Assembly: GCA_012960465.1 (NCBI GenBank)
Contig: DUBF01000181.1
Location: forward strand, 8,445 to 67,972
DNA: 59,528 nt
Reading direction: 5' to 3'
DNA from: Rhodospirillales bacterium
Lineage (GTDB): Bacteria > Pseudomonadota > Alphaproteobacteria > Rhodospirillales > UBA2165
Shown here one piece after another: positions 1 to 7,406 of the stretch. The position numbers and the translations under genes are program-made. Each line of letters opens with the position of its first letter. Within the stretch, counting starts at the first letter, position 1. A model generated the notes under the pieces. The model had not been told where the DNA came from. It worked only from the letters and a program-made list of their open reading frames with translations, and did not search any database.

Positions 1-620
1 TTTCCATTTCCAATGCCAACATGCCGCTCTAGTATGGTTACATGCGAGCCATCTTTTGCCACGACTAGATTTCGAGGATGATGGGTTGCATTTCCATCGC
101 CTTGCGATACATATAAGACTTCAATGGGTTTATCCAATTTTACATTTTCAATTAAAACAACAAGCCCATCCTCTATAAATGCCGTATTAAGCGCCAAGAC
201 CGGGAAGTCCTCAACCGAACTAATCTGACCAAGGTAAGGTTTGATCAAAGCTGCCTCGGCAGAAAGAGCCTCGGATAGGGACAATACTTTTATGCCTTCA
301 CCAAGCTGACCAATTGCGGAAAGATCTTTATCAAAGCGACCGTTAACAAACACCAGTCTATGAGTTTCAAGATCTGCCGGTAACCAGCCCAAATCCACTC
401 CATCCAAGTCCAAAGCATTGTTGTTAACATCGCCAATGCCATCGAGCACCTTAAGGCTTGTGTACTTCCATTCCTCAACATTAGGCGTTGGCAGGCCATT
501 GACAGAGAAACTCTCAAGACCATTTTTACGCAATTGGTTAAGCCATGGTTCGGAACAACTAAATTCTACTGCACTATTCTGCTCAATAAAAGTCTGACTA
601 GATTGTGATAGGTTGCTCAT
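1..620 (-). CDS. sufD: SufD, Fe-S cluster assembly scaffold subunit (partial, N-terminal part)
   Basis: The minus-strand frame opens with ATG at 620 and stays open to the window edge, so about 206 N-terminal residues are present and the C-terminal half is cut off. The protein starts MSNLSQSSQTF and carries the SufD-typical segment PTPNVEEWKYTSL near residue 45, followed by a hydrophobic repeat pattern. SufD forms the SufBC2D scaffold that assembles Fe-S clusters in the cytosol. Its start lies 2 nt after the sufC stop, so the two are translationally coupled in the suf operon. Order B-C-D and tight spacing make the call firm; the missing C-terminus cannot be judged. Confidence 0.9.
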   Translation of the reverse strand, partial: MSNLSQSSQTFIEQNSAVEFSCSEPWLNQLRKNGLESFSVNGLPTPNVEEWKYTSLKVLDGIGDVNNNALDLDGVDLGWLPADLETHRLVFVNGRFDKDLSAIGQLGEGIKVLSLSEALSAEAALIKPYLGQISSVEDFPVLALNTAFIEDGLVVLIENVKLDKPIEVLYVSQGDGNATHHPRNLVVAKDGSHVTILERHVGIGNG

Positions 621-622
621 CT

Positions 623-1381
623 CTAAGCCGCCACTTCTGCATAATTTGCATAACCATTTTTTTCTAATTCAATAGCTAGATTTTTATCGCCAGTATCCAC
701 AATTTTTCCATCAGCGAGCACATGCACGACGTCAGGAACAATATAATCGAGTAAACGCTGATAGTGCGTAATCACAAGCATACTCCGTTCTGATGATTTT
801 AATGCAGTTACGCCCTCACCTACGATACGGAGGGCGTCGACATCCAAACCACTATCAGTTTCATCCAATATGGCTAAAGTAGGTTCTAGAACCGCCATTT
901 GTAGTACTTCAGCACGCTTCTTTTCACCACCTGAGAAACCCACATTAACAGCTCGTTTCAACATATCATCGCCAATGTTTAAAATCTTTGTTTGTTGGCG
1001 AACAAACTTGAGAAAATCCATCGCATCAAATTCACTTTCGCCCCGATATTTTCGAACCGAATTTACTGATGCTTTTAGGAAATTCATCGTAGAAACACCT
1101 GGAATTTCTACCGGATATTGAAAAGCCAAGAACACACCTTCGCCGGCGCGTTGTTCAGGCTCCATATCAAGTAAATTTTTACCCTGATAAAGGACAGAAC
1201 CGCTGGTAACCTCGTAACCTTCTCGACCGGCGAGGACATAAGAGAGTGTCGATTTACCGGCTCCATTAGGGCCCATTATTGCATGGACCTCCCCCGACCC
1301 TATAGTCAAGTTAAGACCCTTGAGAATTTCAATTTCACCAACTTTGGCATGGAGATTTTTAATTTCTAACATTAATTTCAT
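623..1381 (-). CDS. sufC: SufC, Fe-S assembly ATPase
   Basis: A 252-residue ABC-type ATPase of the usual SufC length. Visible motifs are Walker A GPNGAGKST (37-45), the signature FSGGEKKR (149-156), Walker B LAILDE (169-174) followed by the SufC-like TDSGLD, and the H-loop histidine near 206. There are no membrane segments, which separates it from transporters. SufC powers the SufBC2D scaffold. It sits 15 nt after sufB and 2 nt before sufD. Two ATGs are possible (1381 and 1372); neither has a strong ribosome-binding site, and the longer form is reported here. Confidence 0.96.
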   Translation of the reverse strand: MKLMLEIKNLHAKVGEIEILKGLNLTIGSGEVHAIMGPNGAGKSTLSYVLAGREGYEVTSGSVLYQGKNLLDMEPEQRAGEGVFLAFQYPVEIPGVSTMNFLKASVNSVRKYRGESEFDAMDFLKFVRQQTKILNIGDDMLKRAVNVGFSGGEKKRAEVLQMAVLEPTLAILDETDSGLDVDALRIVGEGVTALKSSERSMLVITHYQRLLDYIVPDVVHVLADGKIVDTGDKNLAIELEKNGYANYAEVAA

Positions 1382-1396
1382 TCTTTCTAATAAACT

Positions 1397-2857
1397 TTAA
1401 CCGACACTACCTTCTAAACTAATCCCAACGAGTTTCTGAGCTTCAACGGCAAACTCCATAGGAAGCTCCTGCATTACATCACGACAGAAACCGTTAACTA
1501 TTAAAGCAACAGCATCTTCTTCTGAAATACCACGTTGACGACAATAAAATAATTGATCATCGGCAATTTTAGACGTTGTCGCCTCATGTTCAATCTTTGC
1601 TGATTTATTCCGGCTTTCGATGTAAGGTACGGTATGCGCCCCACATTCCTTACCTATTAATAACGAGTCGCATTGGGTATAATTTCTCGACCCCTCTGCC
1701 TTCGGCATCATTTTAACAAGCCCTCGATACGTGCTTTGTGATTTACCCGCTGAAATACCCTTCGCAATGATCTTAGAACTCGTATTTTTACCAAGATGGA
1801 TCATTTTAGTACCAGTATCGGCTTGTTGATAATTATTGGTAATAGCTACTGAATAAAACTCGCCGACTGAATTATCTCCTTGCAAAATACAACTTGGATA
1901 TTTCCAAGTAATAGCTGAGCCTGTTTCAACCTGCGTCCACGATACCTTGGCATTCCGACCTCGGCATGCGGCACGCTTAGTAACAAAATTATAAATACCA
2001 CCAACGCCATTTTCATCGCCTGGATACCAATTTTGCACGGTGGAATATTTTATATCGGCATCATCGAGGATAACCAACTCTACAACGGCAGCATGAAGTT
2101 GATTTTCATCACGCATAGGTGCTGTGCAGCCTTCAAGATAACTCACCTTGGACCCTGCATCAGCAATTATGAGTGTACGTTCAAATTGCCCTGTATTTGA
2201 CGCGTTAATCCGAAAATAAGTTGAGAGCTCCATTGGGCAATTGACACCCTTTGGTATATAAACAAAAGAACCATCTGTAAAAACGGCGGAATTTAGAGTG
2301 GCAAAATAATTGTCAGAATAAGGAACAACGGAACCCAGATATTGCTTCACTAAGTCTGGATATTCTTTAACAGCTTCTGAAATTGGGCAAAATATTACAC
2401 CTTCCTTTGATAAAGCCTCTTTAAAGGTTGTAGCAACGGAAACACTATCAAACACAGCATCGACTGCAACGTTTTTAACCCCAGCCAGAACCTCTTGTTC
2501 ATGGAGCGGGATCCCCAGCTTTTTGTACGTATCCAATATTTCTGGATCGATGTCTTCAAGGCTCTCTGGTCCATCATCCGCTGATTTTGGCGCGGAATAG
2601 TAGTATGCGTCTTGATAATCAATTGGCGGATAACCTACCTTAGCCCAATCTGGTTCTTTCATAGTCAACCAATGTGAATATGCCTTCAATCGCCACTCAA
2701 GCAACCAATCCGGCTCTTCCTTTTTAGCAGAAATATAACGGATAATGCCTTCGTTAAGACCCTTAGGAGCTTGATCCGTCTCAATATCGGTCACAAAGCC
2801 ATACTTGTATTTTTCAACTAATTCAACTTGATCAACTGTTTCTGTAACCGCTGCCAT
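1397..2857 (-). CDS. sufB: SufB, Fe-S cluster assembly protein
   Basis: A 486-residue SufB of normal length, without intein. The N-terminal region shows the SufB segment [15 protein letters not shown], and the C-terminal half holds the conserved core with [15 protein letters not shown] near the end. SufB is the main scaffold subunit on which clusters are built with sulfur supplied by a cysteine desulfurase. The gene lies 17 nt after the upstream desulfurase gene and 15 nt before sufC, all on the minus strand. Start is ATG at 2857. The family and context agree, so doubt is minimal. Confidence 0.96.
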
Positions 2858-2874: not shown

Positions 2875-4068
2875 TTATTCTGCCGCATTTACCGACAACA
2901 CCTGCCGGTTTTTACGTATGTTTCTAATTTCCTCAATCAGCCGGTTAGCTGCGTAATTAACTTCTTCCTGAAGTGTAAATCGTCCAAGTCCAATCCTTAA
3001 GCTACTTTCCGCCAAATCGGTGGTTAGCCCGATAGCATCTAGAACATAAGATGCTTTTGCCGAAGCCGATGTACACGCAGACCCTGAAGAAACCGCTAAA
3101 TCAGGCAACGCAGCCATCAAGCTTTCTGCATCCACACCTTCAACACTGATGTTCAAATTACCAGGGATACGCTGTTTCATACCCCCATTTACGTGGACCC
3201 CAAATAAGTTGTTATTTAAGGTGGTCAATAGTTCATCTCGCATTTGCCTCAAGCGTTTTGCTTCACCCTCAACCTCTATCGCAGCCAATTCACATGTTTT
3301 ACCAAATCCTACACAAAGTGGTGCTGGCAGAGTTCCTGGTCGGATAGATTTTTCTTGTCCGCCGCCACTAAATAACGGTTTAATTTTAACTCTAGGTTTT
3401 TTGGTTAGGTACAGTGCTCCACATCCCATGGGCCCATAAACCTTGTGACCGGTTATACTCATAAGGTCTACGTTCATGGCCTTTACATCTAATGACATTT
3501 TACCCAGCGCCTGGGCAGCATCTGTATGTAAAAGAACTTCATGCTGATGGCATAATTCTCCTATTTCAGCTATTGGCTGCACAGTACCAATCTCATTTTG
3601 TACAGTCATAACCGAGACCAATAAAGTATCATCAGTAATAGCATCTTTAAGATTATCAAGATCTATTAAGCCATCAGAACCTACTTCTAAAAAGGTAACA
3701 CGCGTCCCCTCGCTTGCTAGGTCATGAGCAGAGTCTAAAATACAGGGATGCTCTGTGACACACGTAACTATATGGTTTTTTTTCTCTCGATAAAAACGAG
3801 TAGCACCTTTCAGCGCGATATTGTTAGCCTCTGTTGCACCTGATGTGAAATAAATTTCCTCTGGCGACGCGCCTATAGAATCAGCAACTTGTCCGCGTGC
3901 TAACTCGACGGCGTCAGCCGCTTCCCATCCATAATAATGACTGCCAGAATGTGGGTTACCAAAGCTCTTATTGAAATAAGGTAACATCGCCTCAACAACA
4001 CGGGGATCGGTCTGTGTAGTCGCATGATTATCTAAATAAACTGGTCTACTTAGTTTCTTATCTGACAC
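2875..4068 (-). CDS. iscS: Class I cysteine desulfurase (IscS-type)
   Basis: A 397-residue PLP enzyme that removes sulfur from L-cysteine and holds it as a persulfide. The N-terminus has VYLDNHATTQTDPRVVEAM, the PLP lysine is in SITGHKVYGP, and the active cysteine is in SSGSACTSAS, the long-loop class I form rather than the SufS class II form. It lies 2 nt downstream of another cysteine desulfurase gene and directly before sufB. The likely role is sulfur donor to SufBCD and possibly to tRNA thiolation. Which of the two desulfurases serves SufBCD cannot be told from sequence. Confidence 0.9.
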   Translation of the reverse strand: MSDKKLSRPVYLDNHATTQTDPRVVEAMLPYFNKSFGNPHSGSHYYGWEAADAVELARGQVADSIGASPEEIYFTSGATEANNIALKGATRFYREKKNHIVTCVTEHPCILDSAHDLASEGTRVTFLEVGSDGLIDLDNLKDAITDDTLLVSVMTVQNEIGTVQPIAEIGELCHQHEVLLHTDAAQALGKMSLDVKAMNVDLMSITGHKVYGPMGCGALYLTKKPRVKIKPLFSGGGQEKSIRPGTLPAPLCVGFGKTCELAAIEVEGEAKRLRQMRDELLTTLNNNLFGVHVNGGMKQRIPGNLNISVEGVDAESLMAALPDLAVSSGSACTSASAKASYVLDAIGLTTDLAESSLRIGLGRFTLQEEVNYAANRLIEEIRNIRKNRQVLSVNAAE

Positions 4069-4070
4069 TA

Positions 4071-5192
4071 TTAGGCAACTTTCATCAACTTATCGGCATT
4101 TGTACTTGAATACATTTTCTCCCACTCACTGATAAAATAATCAACATCCTGCATGGTGTTTCCGTTACCAAGACTTATCCTAATCACATTTGAAGCGACC
4201 CCATCATCAACGCCCATAGCCCTCAAGACGTGCGAAGCCTGAACCTTACCTGAGGAGCAAGCAGAACCCGCACTAATCATGATACCTTTAAGGTCAAATT
4301 TGATAACTTGCGTTTCATTACTTAGGCCAGGCATGAAAATACAACTTGTATTAGGGAGCCGATCAACATTTTCCCCAAATACAATCGCCTCCGGTGCAAT
4401 TTGTTTAATAGATGCCTCCAATGCGTCCCGTAGTTCTCTGATCTTAGTAACATGAGCCAAGTCGCCGATATTCTCTGACGCAACACCGAAACCAGCGATG
4501 CCTGGGAGATTTTCGGTGCCGGCTCGGCGACCCCGTTCCTGACCTCCACCTCGCATGAAAGGATCAAATGGTACTTCTTCATTTACAATCAAGGCACCAA
4601 CACCCTGAGGGCCGCCAATTTTATGGGCCGATAAACTAATAAAATCTACTCCAAGCGTTGACTTATCAAATTTAATCTTGCCACAAGCTTGTATCGCATC
4701 CGTATGGACCAATGCCCCATATTTTTTTGCAACTTTCGAGACTTTAGCGACAGGTTGAATAACTCCGGTTTCATTATTTGCCAACATCACAGAAACTAAA
4801 ATTTGACCATGAGTTTTATCAAGTCGCTCTTCAAGAGCATCTATATCAATCAAACCATTTCGATCCACCCTAAGCTGCTCAATATTATCTGTTGCACCTA
4901 ACACGGAACCGTGTTCAACCGAGGAAGCCATAATGTGTTTACATTTTATCCCACGAAAAACCAAATTATTAGCTTCCGTACCGCCACTTGTAAAAACAAC
5001 CTCGGACGCCCCTACGCCAGCGAGCCTTGCGATCTTGTCACGTGCCTCTTCAATCTTTTGACGTGCTAACCGACCGGAACTATGAACAGAAGAGGGATTG
5101 CCGCCGAGCGCCAAAGTATCGGAAATAATACTAGCAACGTCAGCCGTAATTGGTGTCGTCGCATTATGATCAAAGTAAACAAATTGCTTCAT
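4071..5192 (-). CDS. Second class I cysteine desulfurase (NifS/IscS-type)
   Basis: A 373-residue aminotransferase class V protein clearly related to its downstream neighbour but divergent. It starts MKQFVYFDHNATTPI, has the PLP lysine in SLSAHKIGGPQ, and the active cysteine in SAGSACSSGKVQASH. It is slightly shorter at the C-terminus than typical IscS. The gene lies 15 nt after iscR and 2 nt before the next desulfurase gene, so both are co-transcribed. All catalytic residues look intact, so it should be an active cysteine desulfurase; its specific acceptor is unknown. Tandem class I desulfurases ahead of sufB are also known from other alphaproteobacteria. Confidence 0.88.
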   Translation of the reverse strand: MKQFVYFDHNATTPITADVASIISDTLALGGNPSSVHSSGRLARQKIEEARDKIARLAGVGASEVVFTSGGTEANNLVFRGIKCKHIMASSVEHGSVLGATDNIEQLRVDRNGLIDIDALEERLDKTHGQILVSVMLANNETGVIQPVAKVSKVAKKYGALVHTDAIQACGKIKFDKSTLGVDFISLSAHKIGGPQGVGALIVNEEVPFDPFMRGGGQERGRRAGTENLPGIAGFGVASENIGDLAHVTKIRELRDALEASIKQIAPEAIVFGENVDRLPNTSCIFMPGLSNETQVIKFDLKGIMISAGSACSSGKVQASHVLRAMGVDDGVASNVIRISLGNGNTMQDVDYFISEWEKMYSSTNADKLMKVA

Positions 5193-5207: not shown

Positions 5208-5714
5208 TCACTCTGTAGCGCTATAACCAGTTTCCGGTACGCCGGATGCATTACAATCTGTGATAAAATTCGATGGAAATAAATGCCTCCCACTTGTACC
5301 AATAATCCTATTTTCAACAACATCCGCTAATGAGATAGAACTCAAATATAAAGAAATCTGGTTACCCAGTTCAGACCATAAATCGTGGGTGAGGCAGCGT
5401 GAATTATCAGCCGTACAACCTTTCGGTGAGCCTATTGAACAGCGAGTTGTCTGAATTGGCTCATCTACGGCGATAATGATATCGAATATTTTGATTTGAT
5501 CGGCTTCGCGCGCCAATAAATAACCGCCGCCTGGCCCGCGAACAGATTTCACTTGCGCTCCTTTACGTAATTTACCAAATAACTGCTCCAGATATGAAAC
5601 CGAAATATCTTGCCTGAGCCCAATGTCTATTAGCGCAACGGGCGTGTCCGTATTTTGACAGGCCAAATCAACCATTGCCATTACCGCATATCTACCTTTG
5701 GTACTAAGTTTCAA
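5208..5714 (-). CDS. iscR: IscR-type Rrf2 family Fe-S regulator
   Basis: A 168-residue winged-helix repressor/activator. It starts MKLSTKGRYAVMAM as IscR proteins do, with the wing segment VRGPGGGYLLAR near 58-69. Candidate [2Fe-2S] ligands are C92, C100 and C107 plus H110 (RCLTHDLW), matching the three-cysteine, one-histidine set of E. coli IscR. Some alphaproteobacterial IscRs lack this set, so the ligand spacing is informative. The start codon is TTG, 9 nt after a clear AAAGGAG ribosome-binding site. It lies 64 nt downstream of cysE and leads the suf genes; an IscR-like box is found upstream of cysE. Confidence 0.93.
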   Translation of the reverse strand: MKLSTKGRYAVMAMVDLACQNTDTPVALIDIGLRQDISVSYLEQLFGKLRKGAQVKSVRGPGGGYLLAREADQIKIFDIIIAVDEPIQTTRCSIGSPKGCTADNSRCLTHDLWSELGNQISLYLSSISLADVVENRIIGTSGRHLFPSNFITDCNASGVPETGYSATE

Positions 5715-5778
5715 AGTTTTTCTCCTTTTGACATTTTCCCATTTAGAAAATTTTCAAACTCATTTTAATTACCAGATG

Positions 5779-6492
5779 TCACTGCTTTTTTTCTTTTTCA
5801 TTCTCTATTTCAGCATTTCTGTTTGTTAATTCGGTCTCTAACTCGACCACCCGTTCTCCTAGTACATTTAGTTGATTACGTAAGCTCTCAAAGCTACGCG
5901 CGACTGGATCCGGCAGACCCTCAATTGGCGTACCATAGGCACAGAATTCATCTTCAAGCGACTTGTCCCTTCCCATTACAATTTTAGCAGGAATACCAAC
6001 CATTGTAGCACCTTGAGGTACATCTTGCAGAACAACAGCATTTGCGCCTATACGAGCACCGTTACCAACATTCAAAGGGCCTAAAACTTGAGCGCCAGAA
6101 CCAATAATGACTCCATCTCCAATTGTCGGGTGCCGTTTACCTTTTTCCAGTGAAGTTCCACCCAATGTAACCCCTTGATAAAGTGTGACATCATCTCCAA
6201 CCTTGGAAGTTTCTCCAACCACAACGCCCATACCATGATCAATAAAAAATCGTTGACCAATTTCAGCACCCGGATGAATTTCTACACCTGTTACAAAACG
6301 ACCTAAATTAGAAATCAGGCGGCCCATAAGATAAAAATTTCTTCGCCATGCAAGGTTTGCAAACCTATAAAATAGGATTGAATGATAACCGGGATAACAC
6401 AGGATAACTTCAATGCGAGAGCGAGCAGCTGGATCACGAACCATGTAAGAATCTATATCTCCAGTTAAGCGACCAAAAAAAGTATCATTCAT
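5779..6492 (-). CDS. cysE: Serine O-acetyltransferase CysE
   Basis: A 237-residue left-handed beta-helix acetyltransferase that makes O-acetyl-L-serine from serine and acetyl-CoA, the first step of cysteine synthesis. The catalytic region is visible as [13 protein letters not shown] and [16 protein letters not shown], followed by hexapeptide repeats ([13 protein letters not shown]). It lacks part of the N-terminal helical domain of the 273-residue E. coli enzyme, as many bacterial short forms do. The C-terminal 40 residues are charged and coiled-coil-like. It is the first gene of the cysE-iscR-suf block; its promoter overlaps an IscR-type box. Confidence 0.93.
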
Positions 6493-6588
6493 TGTATTAA
6501 TTTCCGTGCATTAATTCGTTTAACGTACTAAAAAGCTCTTTTGAAAGATAAAAGTGAATAAACTAGCGATTTTGTACGCTGTATACAG

Positions 6589-6617
6589 TATATAGTTTTC
6601 CTGATTATATTAGTCAA
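6589..6617 (-). promoter_or_regulatory. Sigma-70-type promoter of cysE-iscR-suf
   Basis: Read on the minus strand, the -35 box is TTGACT (6612-6617) and the -10 box TATATA (6589-6594), separated by exactly 17 nt. Transcription would start near 6582, giving a leader of about 90 nt before the cysE ATG at 6492. The assignment is from match to consensus and spacing only. Confidence 0.65.
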
Positions 6618-6621
6618 GTAT
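6597..6621. promoter_or_regulatory. IscR type-1-like operator
   Basis: A 25-bp imperfect dyad whose right half AGTCAAGTAT matches the E. coli IscR type-1 consensus right half fully, and whose left half TTTCCTGATT matches at most positions; by my count 22 of 25 positions fit the consensus (ATASYYGACT, five W-rich bases, AGTCRRSTAT). It covers the -35 box of the cysE promoter, so a bound IscR would block polymerase. That fits negative autoregulation by Fe-S-loaded IscR encoded two genes in. Confidence 0.65.
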
Positions 6622-6716
6622 TATGAGAAAATAGAATTAATAAGCCATATTATACCATAGTAAACAACTGTTAAATACACCTCTAACCCAGTTTTAATTG
6701 GCAAATTAGTAGAACC

Positions 6717-7406
6717 ATGACGGACGTAATTTTTAATGGACCTGATGGGCGCTTAGAAGGCCGCTATCATCAAAGTAAACTAGCTGACGCGCCGATTGCA
6801 ATTGTTCTTCATCCCCACCCTCTTCATGGTGGTAATATGAATAATCGCATTATATATACCATGTATAACGCCTTTGTAGACAGAGGCTTTTCAGTCTTAC
6901 GATTTAATTTTCGGGGTGTCGGACGCTCCCAAGGCGTTTTTGATGGTGGTATTGGAGAATTGAGTGATGCAGCATATGCCTTTGACTGGATGCAACAATT
7001 CAACAAAAATAGCCGTTCTTGCTGGATTGGAGGTTATTCTTTTGGTGCATTAATCTCTATGCAATTAATGATGCGGCGACCCGAAATTGAAGGTTTCATA
7101 TCTATCTCGCCACCAGCAAATACCGAGGATTTCTCTTTCCTTGCGCCCTGCCCTTCATGTGGCCTAATTTCCCACGGCGATGCTGATAATTTGATACCGA
7201 TTGAAGCTGCGTCAAAACTAGCTTCTAAACTTGGAACTCAAAAAAATATCGAAATTGAATTTACAGCTATAAAAGGTGCGGACCACTTTTATAAAAATAA
7301 GATAAATCTTTTAAATACAGAAATTTGCCGATATTTGGATGAATCACTTTCGTCCGAAAAAGAAAAAAAATCTATGAAAATAACAACAAAAAAGAAAAAG
7401 AAATAA
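6717..7406 (+). CDS. Alpha/beta hydrolase (COG2945-like)
   Basis: A 229-residue serine hydrolase fold. The N-terminus has ALVLHPHP-like HPHPLHGGNM (oxyanion region), the nucleophile serine lies in GGYSFGA, the acid in ISHGDADNLIP and the histidine in KGADHFY. No signal peptide is seen, so it is probably cytosolic. The substrate is unknown. The last 20 residues are an unusual lysine-rich tail ending in KKKKK, coded by an A-rich stretch. The gene is divergent from cysE and ends 5 bp from the convergent anmK stop. Such hydrolases are often found next to suf genes in alphaproteobacteria, so a link to Fe-S metabolism is possible but not shown. Confidence 0.8.
   Translation: MTDVIFNGPDGRLEGRYHQSKLADAPIAIVLHPHPLHGGNMNNRIIYTMYNAFVDRGFSVLRFNFRGVGRSQGVFDGGIGELSDAAYAFDWMQQFNKNSRSCWIGGYSFGALISMQLMMRRPEIEGFISISPPANTEDFSFLAPCPSCGLISHGDADNLIPIEAASKLASKLGTQKNIEIEFTAIKGADHFYKNKINLLNTEICRYLDESLSSEKEKKSMKITTKKKKK

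Follow-up and report, generated by a model that had tools for sequence, protein, structure and literature searches.

A candidate IscR type-1 operator ahead of cysE in a Rhodospirillales cysE-iscR-suf gene cluster

Genes and control elements of the locus

The DNA analysed here, referred to below as the window, is a stretch of 59,528 bases from a Rhodospirillales bacterium. It carries a run of genes on the minus strand, beginning with cysE and continuing into suf genes, and a hydrolase gene that faces away from them. The features that matter to the argument are as follows.

6717 to 7406, plus strand: divergent alpha/beta hydrolase, an open reading frame named from its sequence, with weak NCBIfam hits
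6652 to 6676, minus strand: place of a second operator (offset -55), degenerate, ATTTAACAGTTGTTTACTATGGTAT, matrix score -12.6
6597 to 6621, minus strand: IscR type-1-like operator (box 1), ATACTTGACTAATATAATCAGGAAA, 22 of 25 positions as in the consensus, conserved in related hydrolase-cysE gaps
6612 to 6617, minus strand: -35 element TTGACT, in the left half of box 1, read from the sequence
6589 to 6594, minus strand: -10 element TATATA, 17 bp from the -35 and two bases past the right end of box 1, read from the sequence
5779 to 6492, minus strand: cysE, serine O-acetyltransferase, first gene of the operon (TIGR01172, 244 bits, above the cut-off of 210.65)
5208 to 5714, minus strand: iscR, Rrf2-family regulator (best hit TIGR02010, 178.3 bits, cut-off of 207.55 missed)
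4071 to 5192, minus strand: cysteine desulfurase 1, NifS/IscS-like (best hit TIGR03402 NifS, 348.8 bits, below cut-off)
2875 to 4068, minus strand: cysteine desulfurase 2, IscS-like (best hit NF010611 IscS subfamily, 528.2 bits, just below the cut-off of 548)
1397 to 2857, minus strand: sufB, open reading frame named from sequence and gene order
623 to 1381, minus strand: sufC, open reading frame named from sequence and gene order
1 to 620, minus strand: sufD, first part, open reading frame named from gene order

Past the edge of the window, open reading frames of the contig continue the run in the same direction with sufS, sufU, a sufT-like gene, a sufA-like gene and a ferredoxin gene. Both sufS and sufU pass their NCBIfam cut-offs and the A-type carrier (sufA-like) passes a subfamily cut-off, while the SUF-associated (sufT-like) protein (143.2 against a cut-off of 143.4) and the isc ferredoxin (81 against 132.1) both fall below theirs. 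Desulfurase-like genes in the operon therefore number three, the two NifS/IscS-like ones and sufS; the tandem pair at 2875-5192 are unlike each other, and the first scores below all of the curated cut-offs compared. On the other side of the control region, tblastn showed that the hydrolase adjoins cysE or iscR in relatives, and it is the hydrolase-cysE gap that contains the operators described below.

The TIGR01172 model matched only once in the genome from which the window comes, at the cysE of the operon. Across 41 genomes a match was present in 37, with two matches only in G013 and G025, and those of G013 are pieces at contig ends that look like one split gene. With this single match, the operon cysE is the sole recognised serine acetyltransferase of its genome, recognition here extending to the TIGR01172 family, such that an enzyme of another family would escape.

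For the iscR product, TIGR02010 remained the top NCBIfam model even though its equivalog cut-off was not reached, and the Rrf2 superfamily cut-off was passed comfortably (128 against 73.3). The cluster ligands C92, C100, C107 and H110 (alignment numbering) were invariant in the nine proteins aligned, as were S40, Y41, E43, Q44 and R59, which are listed as DNA-contact residues in PMC11475020. From the ligands, the contact residues and the gene order we read the protein as IscR-like, and because it keeps the three cysteines, the histidine and the contact residues, a model in which the holo form acts as a repressor is reasonable.

Box 1 and its conservation ahead of cysE

The minus-strand letters at 6621-6597, ATACTTGACTAATATAATCAGGAAA, agree at 22 of 25 positions with ATASYYGACTRWWWYAGTCRRSTAT, the IscR type-1 consensus in the form quoted in PMC6599224. 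The original prediction had described a minus-strand TTGACT-17-TATATA promoter overlapped by a 25-bp dyad with this degree of match, and both the coordinates and the match were confirmed; the dyad proper occupies 6597-6621, the interval given earlier (6589-6621) also taking in the -10. When up to three mismatches to the consensus were allowed, box 1 was the only match in the 59,528 bases and there was none in 100 dinucleotide shuffles; the top score in 20 more shuffles of the window was 20 of 25. Similarly, a matrix derived from 57 other (named) loci ranked box 1 top in the window at 16.1 bits, with 6.7 bits for box 1 on the opposite strand and 6.2 bits for the best other site. An internal 19 of 25 match at 4058-4082 was set aside as being at chance level, since, box 1 aside, the window has three matches of this kind and the mean in 20 shuffles was 2.05. 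A search of the window with Rfam at gathering scores matched no RNA element.

By itself, the promoter motif is not above chance, as the promoter scanner listed 3 in the window where 4.7 were expected; TTGACT-17-TATATA is absent from that list because the scanner demands a T at the last position of the -10. The case for a cysE promoter here, with a nominal start site that we infer to lie near 6582, rests on conservation.

Conservation was assessed in loci from 60 relatives (plus added stretches) together with 80 loci of named records. Many were from metagenome-assembled Rhodospirillales or Rhodospirillaceae, and named Azospirillum, Magnetospirillum, Thalassospira and others were included. After removal of duplicates, 110 of 119 loci had the order hydrolase, cysE, iscR with a gap of at most 450 bp and were kept; the other nine (L011, L039, L051, L061, L100, L102, L118, L127 and L129) lacked a neighbour, ran into a contig end or had a gap above 450 bp. 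The best consensus match in the hydrolase-cysE gap ranged from 16 to 24 of 25 and was at least 18 in 98 of the 110 loci, compared with 3.1% of shuffled gaps (30 shuffles per gap); in the remaining 12 loci it was just 16 or 17. The check that the original prediction had proposed, conservation of the box in orthologous regions, was therefore passed. Two marks of an IscR type-1 site are found in box 1: a consensus match beyond chance and, as read from sequence, an apparent overlap with an Fe-S gene promoter that is conserved in orthologous regions.

The 64-nt gap upstream of iscR (5715-5778) was also as originally described. A site for IscR in this gap was rejected, as the 120 bp before iscR never exceeded 17 of 25 on the sense strand in the 110 loci. 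Over cysE together with the cysE-iscR gap, again on the sense strand, none of the 110 loci reached 18 of 25 and the maximum was 17.

The main box of each locus was chosen with a bonus for TTGA (order and class sets) and for a good -10 (order set), and so the counts of chosen main boxes with TTGA in the -35 position (108 of 110), of TATATT or TATATA as -10 (63 of 110 loci) and of a 17-bp spacer (97 of 110) are all inflated; the comparison at 18 of 25 is free of this bonus. The 108 chosen boxes gave the consensus ATACTTGACCA..TTAGTCGG.CAT. Promoter spacers need no fixed bases, and in these boxes, picked by their fit to the E. coli consensus, from which the base frequencies derive, bases 18-21 (TCGG) were 80 to 99% conserved despite lying inside the spacer, with T18 at 98% and G21 at 99%.

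Searches of whole genomes pointed to the same place. In the window's own genome the best match of the box model (R1) was the cysE promoter region (E 0.037), and of the 19 family genomes in which the model hit anything, 18 had their best match at the promoter region of the cysE operon, although the model was built partly from the promoters that it then finds, and we infer the 18th genome (G013) from a split contig. Five of the 24 family genomes searched gave no match to the box model at E 0.5 or better. A scan of the own genome with the pattern relaxed to the letters of the window gave no other site with fewer than three mismatches, the zero-mismatch hit being so by construction as the pattern was fitted to the window. 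A wider regulon was considered and rejected for this genome; its next hit (E 0.135), inside a parB-like reading frame, probably reflects chance. Elsewhere, two congeners (G005 and G006; L237 and L241, near 1501-1522) have IscR-like boxes between uvrB-like and aspartate aminotransferase-like genes at weak E values (0.395 and 0.307), and two species of genus g11 (L238 and L240, near 1501-1519; E 0.471 and 0.266) share a near-identical box-like palindrome that may be a second IscR target.

A second, phased box upstream and its distribution

Upstream DNA was searched for a further box using a symmetric matrix derived solely from box 1 sequences, with a threshold of 6 bits, in 108 loci (the two of the 110 without TTGA were left out). 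A second box above 6 bits was found in 43 loci and was absent at that level in 65. Its offsets from box 1 were -55 (9 loci), -56 (19), -57 (6), -66 (4), -67 (3), -77 (1) and -80 (1), so that 42 of the 43 lie at 55-57, 66-67 or 77 bp, positions one helical turn apart. The step size, close to 10.5 bp, means that the relative helix face of the two boxes is mostly preserved. Shuffled upstream DNA gave a mean of 0.88 second boxes and at most 4 in 100 trials, and control matrices performed no better: 1 box when reversed, 1 when complemented and at most 5 in 100 column permutations, all to be set against 43. Collapsing similar loci to 83 clusters left 35 clusters with a second box, 34 of them at phased positions. 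When the distance of the second box to box 1 was compared with its distance to the -10, few loci had a spacer other than 17 bp.

At the place where box 1 has TTGA, 25 of the 43 second boxes have CCGA and only 4 have TTGA, with the dyad kept, and most therefore look like operators without a -35. In the window, the second-box place has only its right half recognisable by eye, while the congeners L004, L006, L007 and L009 each have a box above 6 bits at offset -55; the window copy has decayed. In some lineages the second box was instead downstream of box 1, by 25 to 30 bp (+28 in L179, L185 and L081, +30 in L012-L014), and in L163 and L165 it was at +69.

The analysis was extended to the class with 67 loci taken from 125 alphaproteobacterial genomes with hits. 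L166 (a repeat of L049) had been left out before blasting, L205 and L209 were dropped because the stretch lacked a hydrolase, and removal of L143, L147, L150, L154 and L157 as repeats of the first set took the number from 65 to 60. Among these 60 loci with a hydrolase, 39 were cysE-first and 21 iscR-first, and a box above 8 bits lay ahead of the first gene in 55 (34/39 cysE-first and 21/21 iscR-first); the five loci with no box above 8 bits (L162, L180, L196, L206 and L208) were all cysE-first. Where cysE was present the box preceded it, and where cysE was absent the box directly preceded iscR. Second boxes were present in 18 of 55 class loci counted without repeats, at -56 (9), -57 (2), -66 (1), -67 (2), -68 (1), -70 (1) and -77 (2). 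The shuffle control, in which the repeats were still included, gave a mean of 0.51 against 21. One locus of note is L210, in which the IscR-like protein lacks the cluster cysteines (compare Rhodobacter) and a box 1 of 16 bits is still found ahead of iscR.

Regulatory interpretation and alternative readings

The explanation that best accommodates these results, and which we regard as very probably correct, is that box 1 is the autoregulatory IscR operator of one large operon, cysE-iscR-desulfurase-desulfurase-sufBCD-sufS-sufU-sufT-sufA-fdx, through which Fe-S status would gate cysteine synthesis and Fe-S assembly together. With [2Fe-2S] plentiful, holo-IscR on box 1 would keep RNA polymerase off the -35 and the spacer, shutting the promoter; when clusters become short, through low iron or oxidants, apo-IscR would leave the type-1 box and the entire operon would be derepressed. 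As the sole recognised serine acetyltransferase is encoded by the first gene, Fe-S status would in this way set the supply of cysteine sulfur along with the machinery that uses it. Joint repression of cysE, the desulfurases and suf, as originally proposed, is supported by the conservation, the gene order and the IscR residues; what needs amending is the extent, as there are three desulfurase-like genes instead of two and the run goes on to sufU, the sufT-like and sufA-like genes and ferredoxin. The original proposal also did not include the phased second box of 43 of the 108 related loci.

The sequence could have been conserved merely as a promoter, with the dyad arising incidentally from TTGAC and A+T-rich DNA. 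The left half of box 1 does contain the -35, and the promoter motif on its own occurs no more often than chance would predict, but this reading leaves unexplained the conservation of TCGG within the spacer, the upstream boxes that keep the dyad with CCGA in 25 of 43 cases and TTGA in only 4, and the collapse from 43 boxes to 1, 1 and at most 5 with reversed, complemented and column-permuted matrices, and we consider it highly improbable. It is also improbable, if somewhat less so, that the boxes are bound by another Rrf2-type or iron regulator, whether RirA-like, NsrR-like or a paralogue. The own genome does encode two more weak Rrf2 relatives (L002 and L003; 34% and 26% identity), and in Caulobacter an element between -110 and -49 raises expression in low iron even without IscR (PMC11475020). 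Against this, the motif is the IscR type-1 consensus, the adjacent gene encodes an IscR with all of the ligands, and the RirA and NsrR models give just 37 and 28 bits on that protein.

What the upstream box does is a separate matter. In a good share of the relatives the additional operator sits roughly 5.3, 6.3 or 7.3 turns of the helix farther upstream, probably letting two bound IscR dimers cooperate on one face of the DNA, and the box most likely aids box 1 in this manner. In the gap it is the box on the hydrolase side, and the neighbouring hydrolase of Rhodobacter has a promoter of its own there (P5, PMC6956336), so the box might instead serve the divergent hydrolase. This we think unlikely, because 42 loci revealed no shared hydrolase -10 or -35 at a fixed distance from the box, and the distance from box to hydrolase start varies from 9 to 68 bp while that from box to box stays at 55-57, 66-67 or 77; a role as a plain hydrolase promoter was rejected, there being no fixed -10. 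Class-I CRP sites have a characteristic spacing, and the centres of the second boxes, at about -82 to -86, -93 to -95 and -106/-107 from the nominal start (taken from nominal -10 elements), fall near it. The box could accordingly be a class-I activator site, the bound regulator touching the alpha subunit of polymerase. Activation is a live rival, if a rather unlikely one, since upstream positive elements occur both in Caulobacter (-110 to -49; PMC11475020) and in Rhodobacter, where antisense promoter regions raise sense transcription (PMC6956336). Yet the Caulobacter effect persists without IscR, and this type of box needs the cluster, so that one and the same state of IscR would be required both to activate and to repress.

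A broader reading, to which we give slightly less than even weight, is that in many Alphaproteobacteria two IscR type-1 operators govern Fe-S assembly, and often also the entry of cysteine through a sole serine acetyltransferase. In contrast to the abutting sites of Pseudomonas, the distal operator would be kept about 5.3, 6.3 or 7.3 turns away so that IscR acts by looping or as a dual regulator that depends on the helix face, and the lineage of the window would have lost this operator.

Repression of isc-suf by IscR is established in both Caulobacter and Rhodobacter. In Caulobacter crescentus (PMC11475020) isc-suf likewise forms a single operon repressed by holo-IscR when iron is present, with an IscR peak over the -35 and C3H ligands; it differs in that iscR is the first gene, the site at the -35 is said to resemble the type II motif weakly, and the word cysE is absent from the main text. 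The portion of PMC11475020 drawn on here reports no phased pair of type-1 sites. Rhodobacter sphaeroides (PMC4618611, PMC6956336) also has an IscR that represses its own isc-suf promoter with iron, and a divergent hydrolase upstream, but its IscR has a single cysteine and its iscR-first operon carries a 19-bp palindrome, the Iron-Rhodo-box. In Pseudomonas aeruginosa, where the cluster is needed for type-1 binding (PMC6599224), two type-1 sites overlap the promoter of the Fe-S operon (PMC6599224) and cysE lies just upstream of isc (PMC13256707). The abutting sites A and B (25 bp) of that species sit at the iscR promoter, a position that leaves cysE outside the IscR-controlled transcript, whereas in the window the box is ahead of cysE, and relatives with an upstream second box mostly have it 55-57 bp away. 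Searches of the open-licence literature listed no paper that places cysE under IscR in Alphaproteobacteria or describes phased paired IscR sites, and these two aspects look new. If the interpretation is right, the committed step of cysteine synthesis is also under the Fe-S sensor, and sulfur supply and sulfur use share one feedback loop in a large bacterial group; the phased second operator would be a simple system for testing IscR action at a distance, with the Pseudomonas-type layout, in which the box is between cysE and iscR, as a natural comparison.

Outside the class, 20 loci, one or two per family, were drawn from 114 genomes with hits, and 10 of them had a cysE match upstream of iscR. 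The Pseudomonas-like position, with the best box between cysE and iscR, was seen in five (L242, L244, L245, L251 and L252) and a position ahead of cysE in the other five (L243, L246, L249, L253 and L259), so that the cysE-first layout extends beyond the class. Boxes 25 bp apart, again as in Pseudomonas, occurred in L247, L252, L254 and L257, and weakly in L251; L254 has three IscR boxes, at 85, 110 and 135 bp before iscR, in exact steps of 25 bp.
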